Part shown: positions 30,980-57,005 of the stretch, in pieces
How the letters are laid out: each line of letters opens with the position of its first letter
Numbering within the stretch: position 1 is the first letter of the stretch
Assembly (NCBI RefSeq): GCF_007197775.1
Contig: NZ_CP041638.1
Location: forward strand, 3,100,001-3,164,000
Reading direction: 5' to 3'
Origin: Thalassotalea sp. PS06
GTDB lineage: Bacteria; Pseudomonadota; Gammaproteobacteria; Enterobacterales; Alteromonadaceae
Length of the DNA: 64,000 nucleotides
Made by a program: the position numbers and the translations under genes
The notes under the pieces: model-generated
Database searches by the model: none
Told to the model about the DNA's origin: nothing
Seen by the model: the letters and a program-made list of their open reading frames with translations, nothing else

Positions 30980-31913
30980 AACGACACCCCCGATACAATC
31001 GATATAACACCCAGAACCAGCCAATGGTGCCGACGATAAATTTCACTTCTACAGGGAGTTCGCTGCTTGACCAGAACGCCTCGACAAATGCAGCAATCAA
31101 TAGCATTACAAAGGCGCCACAGATCAGTGGCAATACCGAGGCTCCGGCGATTTTGATCGCCTCTTTTCGTGCCAGTGCACCGGGATTCAGGATCGAGAAA
31201 CCTATTTTACATCCAGCCGCCCCAGCGATAACAATCGCCATCAGCTCAAACGAGCCATGACCTATAACGAATGAGAAAAACGGTTCGGTATAGCCGACAT
31301 TAACGATATGGGCGCTAATAGCGCCAAAGAAAAAACTGTTGAAAAGCAAAGGAACAATGGCGCCAATGCCAAGCAGCGCTCCGCCACCGAACATTTGAAA
31401 AGCGATACCGATATTGTTGTATACATAGAATCCGAACATCATCACATCGGTTCCGGCGCCGCGTTCACCGGTTTGCACATCCCCTGACGGGTCATACATG
31501 GCTTCAAGTTCGTTGACCTGCATAGGATCAACAAACCAATAAATATGATCCGGAGCCAGTAACACCCAAAAGAAGGCGATTAACCCTAATCCCCAGAAAG
31601 CCAGCGTGCTGCCAAGAATGAACAGGCGGTTATCATATAAAGATCTCGGGAAGTCCTGAGTAAAAATCCGCAGAATTTGTTTAAGACTAAAGCCGTTACT
31701 CTGATAGAGATGCTGCTGACCTTGTTGTACCAGGTGATTTAAACGTTCAATCAGCGCTGGAGAATATTGTCGGCTTCTCGCTAGCGCCAAATCGGCACAA
31801 ATTTGGCGAAACTGCTCGGGGTAATCTTTAACCTGATTGGCGTTTTCAATATTAAACTCGGAAAATTGCTGCCAGCGCGCTTCATTTATTCGCACAAAGT
31901 GATTTTGCTTCAT
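30969..31913 (-). CDS. SpoIIM (stage II sporulation protein M)-like membrane protein
   Basis: 314 residues. A charged N-terminal region (about 1-100, helical) precedes about six membrane helices with GAISAHIVNVGYTEPFFSFV and GHGSFELMAIVIAGAAGCKIG, motifs of the SpoIIM/DUF95 family. In non-sporulating bacteria the family clusters with RDD and MoxR genes, as here. Starts 4 bases inside the RDD gene. Confidence 0.85.
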   Translation of the reverse strand: MKQNHFVRINEARWQQFSEFNIENANQVKDYPEQFRQICADLALARSRQYSPALIERLNHLVQQGQQHLYQSNGFSLKQILRIFTQDFPRSLYDNRLFILGSTLAFWGLGLIAFFWVLLAPDHIYWFVDPMQVNELEAMYDPSGDVQTGERGAGTDVMMFGFYVYNNIGIAFQMFGGGALLGIGAIVPLLFNSFFFGAISAHIVNVGYTEPFFSFVIGHGSFELMAIVIAGAAGCKIGFSILNPGALARKEAIKIAGASVLPLICGAFVMLLIAAFVEAFWSSSELPVEVKFIVGTIGWFWVLYRLYRGCRYAD

Positions 31914-32602
31914 GCTTCCTGCCCCATAAAATATTGCGCATAACCTTTCAACATATCGACTGCCTGCTGATCACTACAGCCAAGAATTGGTGCCAATACA
32001 TTTGCCAGCTCCTGCTGACGCGCCGCGGAAAGGTCTTCGCAGCGCTCGGCGAAACTGATGATAAGCTTTTGTTCTTCGGTACTGAGCGCTTTAGTTGGTG
32101 CCAGAGGCTCAATTTTTTCACTGAACAGCCCTAATTTGTTCTGCTCTGAAAATATCACCATAGTGCCGGATGCCCAGTCTCCAATGCGTTTAAATTCTTT
32201 GCCAAAGACCATCACTAACATGCCAAGAGCATAGGCAAAAGGAAAAGCGTCGGCGGGTCTGAGAAGGTTCCTGAGGATGATTTGTTCGATTCTAGGCGGC
32301 AGGCCATTGTCCTGAACGACTTGTAATTTATAGCGTTTTTTACCTGGCGTCTGACCATTTTTGGCTTCGAAATAGATATAGTAGCCCCAGCTGACCACAA
32401 AAAAGGCGATCAACAACAGACCTTGCCCGGCATCACCGAGGAAAGCGAATATCATTCCTAAAACAAAAAGTATGATGGCGCGGAACATAAAGTCCCACAT
32501 ATAGGCATATGCTCTGACAGCAAGACCTGCCGGCTCTAAGTTGATACTTACGCCTTCGGGTAGCCTTTGGTAGATTAGATTATCAATTCCTTGATACTGC
32601 AT
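31910..32602 (-). CDS. RDD family membrane protein
   Basis: 230 residues, first gene of the MoxR operon. The RDD domain (LAVRAYAYMWDFMFRAIILF start, then GQTPGKKRYKLQVV) spans about residues 25-160 with three membrane helices; RDD proteins are often transport-related. A helical cytoplasmic tail follows. The region upstream contains a hairpin array. Confidence 0.85.
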   Translation of the reverse strand: MQYQGIDNLIYQRLPEGVSINLEPAGLAVRAYAYMWDFMFRAIILFVLGMIFAFLGDAGQGLLLIAFFVVSWGYYIYFEAKNGQTPGKKRYKLQVVQDNGLPPRIEQIILRNLLRPADAFPFAYALGMLVMVFGKEFKRIGDWASGTMVIFSEQNKLGLFSEKIEPLAPTKALSTEEQKLIISFAERCEDLSAARQQELANVLAPILGCSDQQAVDMLKGYAQYFMGQEA

Positions 32603-32801
32603 TTTACATCGTTATTATTTTCCTGAGCCGAAAATAATGCGCTAAAAAACACACAGATGCAAGACACAGCCGTGGACTACATAAAATGCAAATGCCGCTC
32701 CGAATTCGAAGCGTTTTGGTCACTCTATGCTTCTGGAAACTAGCCAGAGAAATCGCTTCTGGCGCTTTTTACCGGGTTGGTTTCGCTTATTTACGTCCCA
32801 G

Positions 32802-33586
32802 ATTCCCTGTAGTATCAGGGAATGACTTGAGGTTTTTTGCTGTTTCTTCCACCAGTGCAGCTTACCTCATTAGGAGCGACGTTTTTTTGTCGCGTGTTAA
32901 GGGAGTTTCAACTCCCACTTGTCGCACTTTAGAGACATTCGGCTCTCGCCAGGATTCCCTGTAGTATCAGGGAATGACTTGAGGGTTTTTGCTTTTTGCT
33001 AGGAACAGCGTGTACTCGGAGCTGATGACATCAGCGTACTCGAAGTGGCGTTTTCTGCCACGTGCTAGGAACAATCTTTGATTGTGTACTCGGAGTATCG
33101 CTTGCGATACCTACTAAGGGAGTTTCAACTCCCGTTCTACACCTTTGAGACACTCGTCTCTATCCAGAGATACCGTGCAGTATCACGGCATGACTGGAGT
33201 CTAGATGCTTTTGTTTTTGCTTTTTGCTTTTTGCTAGGAACAGCGTGTACTCGGAGCTGATGACATCAGCGTACTCGAAGTGGCGTTTTCTGCCACGTAC
33301 TCGGAGTATCGCTTGCGATACCTACTAAGGGAGTTTCAACTCCCGTTCTACACCTTTGAGACACTCGTCTCTATCCCGAGATACCGTGCAGTATCACGGC
33401 ATGACTGGAGTCTAGATGCTTTTGTTTTTGCTTTTTGCTTTTTGCTTTTTGCTAGGAACAGCGTGTACTCGGAGCTGATGACATCAGCGTACTCGAAGTG
33501 GCGTTTTCTGCCACGTACTCGGAACAATCTTTGATTGTGTACTCGGAGTATCGCTTGCGATACGTACTACGGGAGTTTCAACTCCC
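32802..33586. repeat. Modular hairpin array 1 with GTACTCGGA-type linkers
   Basis: A chain of distinct short palindromes, each 14-22 bases: ATTCCCTG/CAGGGAAT (32802-32823, again at 32954), GCGAC/GTCGC (32876-32893), GGGAGTT/AACTCCC (32901 and further copies), GCTGATG/CATCAGC (33021-33035), GTGGC/GCCAC (33045-33061), ACAATC/GATTGT (33071-33085), GTATCGC/GCGATAC (33095-33110), GAGAC/GTCTC and CCGTG/CACGG. Most are separated by GTACTCGGA, GTACTCGAA or GTGCTAGGA. The block from about 33001 recurs at about 33235 and 33454, each copy preceded by two, three or four TTTTTGC heptamers. Confidence 0.8.
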
Positions 33587-33589
33587 GTC

Positions 33590-33850
33590 TCATTTCAACA
33601 ACGGATGATCCGCAGGCAATTGATGGCTTATCCATTTAACCAAGCGCTTTTTCATATGAACGCCATTTTCCTGTTCGGCAGGTAAGGGGATCACCAGTTT
33701 ATCGTTTACCAGCAAGCGATAAATGCACTCGACTTTTTGATCAAAAGAGTCGGTCGGCCCAAAGCTTTTATAGCCTCGATTATTGGCATAGGCCTGGCCA
33801 ACAACCAAAGCTTTTTTCAGTAGTTCTTTTTCGTTCTTTAATTTTTTCAT
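33590..33850 (-). CDS. DUF5062 family protein
   Basis: About 86 residues, cytoplasmic, charged: MKKLKNEKELLKKAL start, then GQAYANNRGYKSFGPTDSF and KKRLVKWISHQLP, characteristic of DUF5062. ATG 33850 is used because it overlaps the stop of the potassium-channel gene (TGATG arrangement). No function known. Its stop is 4 bases from the nearest hairpin of array 1, which may terminate it. Confidence 0.75.
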   Translation of the reverse strand: MKKLKNEKELLKKALVVGQAYANNRGYKSFGPTDSFDQKVECIYRLLVNDKLVIPLPAEQENGVHMKKRLVKWISHQLPADHPLLK

Positions 33851-34629
33851 CACGTTGACTCATTGTCATCGAGTAATCGTTTCTGGTGAAGGCGATTAAC
33901 AATTAATCCAAAACCAATAGCAATTATCGCTACCCCTAATAAACTTTGTATTGAAGCCGCCAGCTTCACAAACCAAAAATTCGGTGTAATGTCACCATAC
34001 CCTAGGGTAGTAACGGTTACCACACTAAAGTAAAAGCATTCAAGAAAATACAATCTTCGTTTTTGAGTCAGATAGCGGGGAAAAAACACACTCTCTGTCG
34101 TTTGCACAGCCTGCCATTTAAGGGCAGGAGTCACCGGCTTTCCATAGCTCACCGCGACATCCTCGACTAACCCATCGATGCTTTCAAAAATGGAGTGTTT
34201 GGTACCATTAAAACCGCGGGTATCATTCGGGTAGGCGATGTTTTTATATTGCTCTGGCAGGTTTTGATAATGATGATATTCATTCATGTAGTGGCGATAG
34301 TCCGCCAGTGAGCTTATCAGGTAATAGCCAGCACTAAAGACAATAATGGTTGAAAGGTACGTCGCTGCCAAGTCACCTAATACCCGGTTTTTAACATTTT
34401 GCTGAAACAGGTAAACGAAGATATATATCAGCCTGACAATCCAAATCAGCAACACCCCGTAAAATAAACCAGAGACAATATAGCTAATCCATTTCGGTAG
34501 GCGCTCTTCTTCCTGAGAATATATCACCATGATCTCCAGGCAAAGAATAAATACCGCAGCCAGCAACAATCCTGAGGACAATATTTTTGCCCAGTTGGGA
34601 ATAAGATTGCGAATGTCGCTGATCGGCAA
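33850..34629 (-). CDS. Potassium channel family protein (Kch/ion_trans_2)
   Basis: 259 residues with four membrane helices and the K+ selectivity filter VTTLGYGDITPNF in the P-loop near residue 213. The N-terminal pair of helices, a soluble extracellular-like segment (YHHYQNLPEQYKNIAYPNDTRG) and a second pore helix give a 4-helix arrangement with extra loop; there is no RCK domain. Probably an inward or two-pore-like K+ channel. Overlaps DUF5062 by one base. Confidence 0.8.
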   Translation of the reverse strand: MPISDIRNLIPNWAKILSSGLLLAAVFILCLEIMVIYSQEEERLPKWISYIVSGLFYGVLLIWIVRLIYIFVYLFQQNVKNRVLGDLAATYLSTIIVFSAGYYLISSLADYRHYMNEYHHYQNLPEQYKNIAYPNDTRGFNGTKHSIFESIDGLVEDVAVSYGKPVTPALKWQAVQTTESVFFPRYLTQKRRLYFLECFYFSVVTVTTLGYGDITPNFWFVKLAASIQSLLGVAIIAIGFGLIVNRLHQKRLLDDNEST

Positions 34630-56131: not shown

Positions 56132-56160
56132 TAACAACAAGCCACGGGTTAAAATTCGCT

Positions 56161-56760
56161 TAGGTGACAAGTGGCGAGGAATTGAGTATTGAGAACAATT
56201 CCTCTGGGGTGACAAAGGGCGCGTAATTTACGTCGCATACAATGACGCTAAGGTGTCAGACTTCGCAGAAAACGCGAAGTCTGGTGTCATCACAAAATCA
56301 GAAAACAATTTTGTGACGGTGACAAGTGGCGCGCAATTAATTTGGAATGCAATTACGCTAAGGTGTCAGACTTCGCAGAAAACGCGAAGTCTGGTGTCGT
56401 CACAAAATCAGAAAACAATTTTGTGACGGTGACAAGTGGCGCGCAATTAATTTGGAATGCAATTACGCTAAGGTGACAGCCTTCGCAAACAACGCGAAGT
56501 CTGGTGTCGTCACAAACTCAAAAAACAATGTTGTGACGGTGACAAGTGGCGCGCAATTAATTTGGAATGCAATTACGCTAAGGTGACAGCCTTCGCAAAC
56601 AACGCGAAGTCTGGTGTCGTCACAAACTCAAAAAACAATGTTGTGACGGTGACAAGTGGCGCGCAATTAATTTGGAATGCAATTACGCTAAGGTGACAGC
56701 CTTCGCAAACAACGCGAAGTCTGGTGTCGTCACAAACTCAAAAAACAATTTTGTGACGGT
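56161..56760. repeat. Modular hairpin array 2, left arm (110-bp units)
   Basis: About five tandem copies of a 110-bp unit (motif AATTACGCTAAGGTG at 56351, 56461, 56571, 56681 and a variant at 56241). Each unit holds hairpins: GCGcAATT/AATTaCGC, CAGACTTCGC/GCGAAGTCTG (56257-56283), and TCACAAAAT/ATTTTGTGA (56290-56316), with the linker GGTGTC or GGTGACA between them. A first hairpin GAGGAATTG/CAATTCCTC is at 56176-56204. Later copies have mutated stems (CAGCCTTCGC; CACAAACTC). Confidence 0.8.
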
Positions 56761-56769
56761 GACGACTTG

Positions 56770-57005
56770 AATAAAGGCGCTTCGTTGACACCGCTGACAC
56801 CCTAACGAGAAATCTATTTCTCGTTTGACACCGCTTGAAAGCCGTCCATTTCAAGCTGTCACCTCGCCTTAGCGAAGACAAATCGAGCAAAGGCGCTTCG
56901 TTGACACCGCTGACACCCTAACGAGAAATAGATTTCTCGTTTGACACCGCTTGAAAGTTGTCCATTTCAAGCTGACACCTTTGATTTTCCTTAGTAGAAA
57001 ATCAA
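56770..57005. repeat. Modular hairpin array 2, right arm with inverted linkers
   Basis: Two copies (period 116 bases, from 56773 and 56889) of a block with hairpins AACGAGAAAT/ATTTCTCGTT (56804-56825), GCTTGAAA/TTTCAAGC (56833-56856) and CGCCTT/AAGGCG, then TTGATTTTC/GAAAATCAA (56981-57005). Each hairpin is preceded by TGACACC, the reverse complement of the left-arm linker GGTGTCA. Confidence 0.75.

Follow-up and report, generated by a model that had tools for sequence, protein, structure and literature searches.

The alternation of constant and variable parts is familiar from CRISPR, and in the attC arrays of integrons, including CALIN, variable palindromes stand between constant boxes. Another kind of arrangement is that of the REPs, in which the palindrome itself is constant and carries a GTAG or CGTC tag. 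In the portions of the literature drawn on here, REPs are described as short palindromes of many copies that lie between genes and in clusters, mostly at convergent and co-directional gene ends, with G-T pairs in their stems (PMC3733652). In Neisseria, according to the parts of the NIME account used here, intergenic arrays of 200-2700 bp are made up of the element dRS3, ATTCCC(N8)GGGAAT, together with RS units (PMC3898611).

The DNA analysed here, referred to as the window, is a stretch of 64,000 nucleotides from Thalassotalea sp. PS06, a genus of the Colwelliaceae, and corresponds to positions 3,100,001-3,164,000 of a single contig of 3,795,229 bp. An earlier note had described in it, at 32802-33586, an array of different hairpins, most of them introduced by a constant linker (array 1). 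These bounds are exact, as one hairpin starts at 32802 and the final one ends at 33586. With a perfect hairpin defined by a stem of at least 6 and a loop of 2-8, array 1 holds 14, whereas no more than 5 arose in any of 300 dinucleotide shuffles (mean 0.94). At least nine distinct palindromes had been claimed; the perfect ones amount to five distinct sequences, and about nine is reached only when imperfect hairpins read by eye (GCGACG.., GTGGCG.., ATACCGTG.. and GAGACatt..) are included. Seven of the 14 perfect hairpins come right after GTACTCGGA and one after GTGCTAGGA, whereas the other six, the ATTCCCTG and GGGAGTT hairpins, do not. With at most one mismatch, GTACTCGGA occurs 15 times in the window, where shuffles yield 6.6 on average; 10 of the 15 lie within array 1.

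The view that array 1 is not an ordinary tandem repeat has to be corrected. It is made of head-to-tail copies of a composite unit with a period of 211-235 bp and is thus also a tandem repeat. Tandem Repeats Finder gives a 211-bp period, with 2 copies and 96% matches; the unit copies are spaced 235 and 218 bp, the middle one agrees at 65% without gaps, and a degenerate unit, matched by the unit model at 32813-32916 (30.1 bits), precedes them. The unit begins with a hairpin ATTCCCTG..CAGGGAAT or ATACCGTG..CACGGCAT and continues with a T-rich tract and the GCTGAT, GTGGCG, ACAATC, GTATCGC and GGGAGTT hairpins, in this order; the ACAATC hairpin is absent from one copy. Within units, the joiners are GTACTCGGA, GTACTCGAA, GTGCTAGGA or a GTACTA-like stretch (Table 1). 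The hairpins, called variable in the earlier note, do differ from one another, but they are recurring words tied to positions in the unit.

Table 1. Features of the two hairpin arrays of the window and of the genes next to array 1.
Feature	Position in the window	Strand	Basis
RDD-family gene, starts 200 bp left of array 1, directed away	31910..32602	-	
Hairpin H1, copy 1, ATTCCCTG-tagtat-CAGGGAAT, dRS3-like ends	32802..32823	+	hairpin scan
Imperfect hairpin H2, GCGACG...GTCGC, in the degenerate first unit	32876..32893	+	by eye
Hairpin H6, GGGAGTT-tc-AACTCCC, end of the first unit	32901..32916	+	hairpin scan
Hairpin H1, copy 2	32954..32975	+	hairpin scan
Linker GTACTCGGA	33012..33020	+	
Hairpin GCTGAT-gac-ATCAGC	33021..33035, again 33256-33270, 33474-33488	+	hairpin scan
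Further GTACTCGRA linkers	33036, 33086, 33247, 33271, 33297, 33465, 33489, 33515, 33539	+	
Unit core copy 1: linker-GTGGCG hairpin-GTGCTAGGA-ACAATC hairpin-linker-GTATCGC hairpin-CTACTAA-GGGAGTT hairpin	33036..33133	+	model R1, 77.5 bits
H1 variant ATACCGTG-cagtat-CACGGCAT, one mismatch	33170..33191, again 33381-33402	+	by eye, aligned to H1
Unit core copy 2: GCTGAT first, without ACAATC hairpin	33247..33344	+	model R1, 103.3 bits
Unit core copy 3: linker-GTGGCG-linker-ACAATC-linker-GTATCGC-GTACTAC-GGGAGTT hairpin	33489..33586	+	model R1, 81.1 bits
87-aa ORF, stop towards the 3' end of array 1	33590..33853	-	
Array 2, linker GGTGWCA (left) / TGWCACC (right)	56140..56980	+	

A nucleotide search of the genome with array 1 gave at least 100 matches, and the genome stretches examined contain 34 arrays, each with two or more linkers outside called genes; this count leaves out L055, L058 and L066, which are overlapped by L109, L106 and L104, and two clusters inside genes. 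The pattern GTACYCGRA-N10..30-GTACYCGRA selects by the linkers alone and demands no pairing. It has 72 matches in the genome, and the reversed pattern has none. Among the 71 of these 72 segments examined, 67 are palindromic with at least five outermost Watson-Crick pairs (shuffle mean 0.16, maximum 3), and all 71 have at least four of the six outermost pairs. With one linker mismatch allowed, 133 of 145 segments in the genome stretches examined are palindromic, against 0.2 in shuffles; a null that joins halves of different hairpins yields 10 palindromes on average and 20 at most. A chance origin of the hairpins is ruled out by the shuffles, in array 1 as well as genome-wide, and the grammar of constant linker and changing hairpin holds outside the window under both the strict and the loose choice of linker. 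A module consists of the 9-nt linker GTACYCGRA and a short hairpin, mostly of 15-19 nt. The linker is common to all modules, while the arms vary from one to the next, drawing on a limited set of words, and the two arms of a hairpin change together. Protein coding was rejected, since linker and hairpin together mostly measure 24, 26, 27 or 28 nt and so break the frame. Elsewhere in the genome, seven unit matches stand about 204 bp apart (L031, 2636-3959), five of them nearly identical, which indicates recent tandem growth. Further intergenic modules (GAAAATTGCTCCTGCATTTTCGGCATATA.., runs of CTTCCACC, and ATCCCGGC..GCCGGGAT) occur among or beside the arrays of five loci (L047, L049, L053, L054 and L062), around which the repeat mosaic is richer than the linker-hairpin arrays described here.

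The earlier note knew of no described element with this grammar, which is too strong, as REP/BIME clusters and, in the parts of the account at hand, the Neisseria NIME arrays (PMC3898611) are near neighbours. For the composite type represented by array 1, NIME is the closest known kind, as far as that partial account goes. Here, a hairpin with dRS3-like ends (ATTCCCTGtagtatCAGGGAAT), of the form ATTCCC(N10)GGGAAT, alternates with a composite of about 190 bp, much as dRS3 does with RS; however, its interior is 10 nt instead of N8, and the part corresponding to RS is a row of hairpins, whereas RS units are not described as linker-joined hairpin rows in the portions of that account used here (PMC3898611). 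This genome also has arrays built about a centre axis and arrays without the dRS3-like hairpin. With REP/BIME, the arrays share short, many-copy, clustered intergenic palindromes, G-T pairs in stems (both as given in the portions of the REP account used, PMC3733652) and few divergent gene contexts. In REPs, however, the palindrome is the constant part, and here it is the linker: even with compensated subfamilies allowed, the 133 palindromes between linkers have 28 distinct 6-nt arms, and the ACAATC, GTGACG and GCTGAT hairpins are most often flanked on both sides by forms of GTACYCGRA and not by a REP tag. Rfam has no match in the window at the gathering threshold and none at E<=1 in 32600-33900, and in six further array loci it finds only tRNAs, in L093. 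Thus, neither an Rfam entry nor the GTAG/CGTC REP type accounts for array 1. Among the papers listed in literature searches of a collection with few subscription journals, none dealt with this grammar, and absence from print is not claimed.

The anatomy of the array alone speaks against CRISPR and an integron attC array. Unlike in CALIN, the same box flanks each hairpin in the same orientation and is not an inverted pair inside the hairpin, and the hairpins are consecutive, with no room for cassette genes. The likeness to CRISPR ends with the alternation, as the variable part here is a palindrome from a limited vocabulary common to many loci and not a unique spacer. DNA uptake words were set aside by reasoning only.

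The change of arms in step can be followed in 20 distinct gap-free units of 98 nt, compared over 26 pairs (520 cells). In these, 99.6% of the cells are paired and six of the 26 pairs are altered on both sides. None of 500 shuffles came as high on four of five covariation measures; on the fifth, which considers further pair types, 170 of the 500 did. Six slid structures left 22-54% of cells paired and no pair altered on both sides, the one slid by -3 having a covariation score of 0.094 against 0.109 for the true register. One of the four helices, ACAATC, is invariant across the 20 units and thus carries no covariation information. Between species, a hairpin at a shared site reads GAGGCC..GGCCTC in T. 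litorea and GAGGCG..CGCCTC in this genome.

A search of related genomes for the linker followed by palindromes, as the earlier note had proposed, revealed that Thalassotalea litorea and T. mangrovi carry the array family; in the two species together, with one linker mismatch allowed, 64 of 78 linker-bounded segments are palindromic. With 150 candidates scored in each genome, the unit covariance model has 77 matches in this genome and 0 in 14 others of the genus. In the same 14, the GTACYCGRA linker-pair pattern has a single match, a perfect palindrome in G005; a search of 295 family genomes adds two that show no pairing by eye. A 131-bp piece from G005 is matched 34 times in that genome, 39 times in G003 and 4 times in G010, and in none of the other 12. 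The sister family of these three genomes follows the same grammar with GTAYYCGRA linkers (for example GTATTCGAA and GTATCCGAA) and with hairpins GTAGC..GCTAC, GGTAC..GTACC, GTCAC..GTGAC and GGCGC..GCGCC. Of G003, G005 and G010, only G003 was among 196 family genomes drawn for a further search; there, the linker-pair pattern matched 25 times in G003 and 2 times in the control. Among the 20 listed of these 25, there are 15 perfect palindromes, one segment with a G-T pair and four that are not palindromic. Nine other genomes gave one to three matches each, not palindromic by eye. The loops of the sister genomes are not pyrimidine-rich, and the rule therefore does not extend to the loop.

The comparison of module gain and loss, likewise proposed, covered three loci. 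Eight T. litorea and six T. mangrovi loci had been drawn by one exact pattern, and two of the 14 were followed further. The T. mangrovi locus L094 aligns to this genome in five blocks over most of 8 kb, and its three arrays are absent from the matching place here; so is the T. litorea array of L097, which brings the arrays of relatives lacking here to four. At the third locus (L090 in T. litorea, L106 here), both species have arrays and the order and number of modules differ. Duplication affects single modules as well as whole units of about 210 bp, and both differ between species. At the array-free site L239, the flanks are by eye too diverged for a target duplication to be called. A phage or plasmid origin was rejected, as the third unit (window 33420-33600) has no match in plasmid and phage collections and a loose linker pattern gave 0 palindromic among the 185 matches listed in viral contigs (120 stretches).

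The window contains a second array of this kind. Array 2 obeys the grammar of array 1; the linker is GGTGWCA in its left part and the complementary sequence in its right part, and its hairpins include AGACTTCGC..GCGAAGTCT. Genome-wide, GGTGWCA-N12..40-GGTGWCA has 93 matches against 14 in the control. After the removal of bare linker tandems (at 741 and 877 kb), longer strings containing a shorter match and inner-segment repeats, 63 distinct strings were examined: 30 have a stem of at least 6 pairs anchored near both linkers (shuffle mean 0.3, maximum 3), 33 have none, and in 28 of the 30 a purine comes first. In the 14 other genomes of the genus, the same pattern has 38 matches, non-palindromic by eye except one in G004. 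One genome therefore holds one design with two unrelated linkers. As read from the letters, all three linkers contain a self-complementary stretch, namely GTAC, TTCGAA and TGWCA. At one and the same intergenic site, T. litorea has its GTACYCGRA array (L097 7306-7531) and this genome has GGTGWCA arrays (L240 4992-5459). Bare tandem runs of GGTGTCA without hairpins were also observed, at 741176-741222 and 877585-877690 of this genome (G000).

The arrays come in two layouts. Those of the array 1 type, the composite arrays, contain the ATTCCC..GGGAAT hairpin and run in a single direction. In the centre arrays (such as L106, L057 and L107, and L090 in T. litorea), reverse linkers stand on the left and forward ones on the right of a palindromic centre, for example TTCGAGTTAAGAGC-c-GCTCTTAACTCGAA, and the H1-type hairpin is absent from most of them. 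Adjacent linkers not more than 30 nt apart have the same orientation in 145 cases and the opposite one in a single case in this genome (L054, away from its array); in the relatives the counts are 78 and 7, six of the seven lying in L094, where the hairpin arms themselves resemble a linker with one mismatch, and one in L102. Wider switches of orientation number 13 from reverse to forward and five from forward to reverse. Eleven of these 18 are centres of 32-65 nt (L057, L104, L106, L107, L108), four lie between repeated copies (L107, L108) and three (L038, L039, L051) look like chance words.

This divergent layout allows linkers on opposite sides to pair with each other and form a spine, from which the hairpins project as ribs. 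In the predicted RNA folds of three centre arrays, 12 of 20, 10 of 14 and 8 of 10 linkers are paired with opposite ones, counts that come with no shuffled baseline. The predicted fold of array 1 has 0 of 10 so paired; array L257 of G003 has 0 of 7, but the pattern used to find its linkers, GTACYCGRA, was unsuited, so this result cannot be compared fairly with the others. Predicted folds of short units also allow adjacent linkers to pair by their GUAC ends around the hairpin. The fold z of the window unit is -2.5 on the linker strand and -3.5 on the other, and that of the L035 unit -3.2 and -2.5, so both strands of these units are predicted to fold about equally well.

With regard to position, the arrays reside mostly past gene 3' ends, which fits what the consulted portions of the REP account report (PMC3733652). 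Pooled over this genome and the relatives, there are 33 one-way composite arrays, and in 27 of them the gene upstream is directed into the array. Where both neighbours were called (n=30), 14 contexts are convergent, 10 and 4 co-directional and 2 divergent; the divergent share over all array types is 5 of 49. The genes were called with a home-made ORF heuristic, and many arrays lie more than 500 bp from the upstream gene. The preference for linker sense in the co-directional contexts, 10 vs 4, is suggestive only. Array 1 is an exception to the usual placement, as no gene reads in from its left side. Around it, promoter-like sites (2 vs 2.2 expected) and terminator-like sites are at chance level. 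Terminator-like sites precede arrays in 10 of 41 gaps (9 more were too short) and follow 16 of 104 other gene ends, with slightly different gap limits; in the lack of a clear difference, the idea that the arrays are terminators or lie behind them was dropped.

The best explanation, with a probability of about 0.5, is that of a palindrome mosaic acting as structured RNA at gene 3' ends. Array 1 would be a single member of a non-autonomous family of palindrome mosaics that lie between genes throughout the genome, akin to REP/BIME and NIME with the roles of palindrome and spacer reversed. That the arrays are transcribed and function as RNA is inferred, as is their means of spread. Their working form would most likely be RNA, with the array transcribed as the tail end of the message of the upstream gene. 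There, it may fold into a row of stem-loops or, when it is of the centre type, into the spine-and-rib form described above. The folded array could shield or shape the 3' end of the mRNA, as proposed for REP/BIME.

Mismatches within the stems bear on this explanation. In a collection of 388 hairpins from this genome and the relatives, for which at least four of six Watson-Crick pairs were required, in-stem mismatches read in linker orientation comprise 40 G-T, 9 A-C and 9 others; among distinct hairpins the numbers are 29, 9 and 9 (G-T vs A-C, p 0.0017), counts in which related array copies are not independent. A strand-blind DNA process would give equal numbers of G-T and A-C, and the excess of G-T thus points to an RNA strand, though it could partly be strand-biased mutation. 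With loop-closing pairs counted and segments with more than two non-Watson-Crick pairs dropped, the ratio becomes 63 to 6; this was not relied on, because such pairs reflect T-rich loops. The explanation also draws on the grammar, the covariation of the arms, the placement at gene ends and the gain and loss of arrays between species. Against it speak the chance-level promoter-like sites around array 1, the terminator-like sites that do not set arrays apart, the similar predicted folding of both strands and the lack of a gene directed into array 1 from the left.

A real, if lesser, chance is left to selfish or neutral DNA palindromes with no RNA function. These would arise at the replication fork by slippage, template switching and palindrome correction, would be spread by recombination or an unknown transposase, and would be tolerated past gene ends. 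The unit duplication at L031 and the presence or absence of arrays between species are in line with it; so are the centre arrays, which are large inverted repeats, and the single grammar with two unrelated linkers in one genome, which fits a generic DNA process. However, the G-T asymmetry is tied to linker orientation, and one linker with different arms in three species is not predicted by a purely mechanical process.

It is also proposed, tentatively and as less likely than not, that the linker-rib array is a new class of bacterial element. In it, a short, partly self-complementary linker would have multiplied, in many cases to the left and right of a centre, and the stretches between its copies would be kept palindromic, purine first, by a dedicated or generic process; the whole would fold as a spine of paired linkers with ribs, as a DNA cruciform or as RNA. 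GTACYCGRA, GTAYYCGRA and GGTGWCA would be interchangeable, as the occupation of one site by different linkers in T. litorea and in this genome suggests.

That the arrays are read through their linker by a DNA-bending protein or an RNA-binding regulator, with hairpins that only space or expose the sites, appears improbable. The linker is indeed the common part, and purine-pyrimidine steps flank it, as 386 of the 388 hairpins open with a purine and 358 have a pyrimidine in second place. However, the spacing varies from 11 to 23 nt, although mostly 15-19, so there is no helical phasing. Further, the linker ends in CGGA or CGAA, and a reader of GGA such as CsrA would not take both alike.

A search of the whole genome for Y1_Tnp (PF01797) gave one match, at 22.1 bits against a curated cut-off of 23; in this weakly Y1-like protein of 202 aa (L112 1420-2028), the histidine motif expected of Y1 transposases is not visible, and no linker-like word lies within 3.3 kb. 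Clustered short intergenic palindromes near gene 3' ends are what the consulted portions of the REP account would lead one to expect of REP-type elements mobilised by a Y1 (RAYT) transposase (PMC3733652), but with this locus as the only match, no constant palindrome and no GTAG/CGTC as a common flank, such mobilisation is very hard to credit.

If the grammar is general, there would be palindrome repeats in bacterial genomes that are split into unrelated fragments by sequence-based repeat finders, because it is the pairing and the spacer that are kept and not the palindrome. With compensated stems that occur naturally in several species, and on two linkers within a single genome, the arrays offer material for asking directly whether an RNA function or a process of DNA repair or replication stands behind repeats of this kind.
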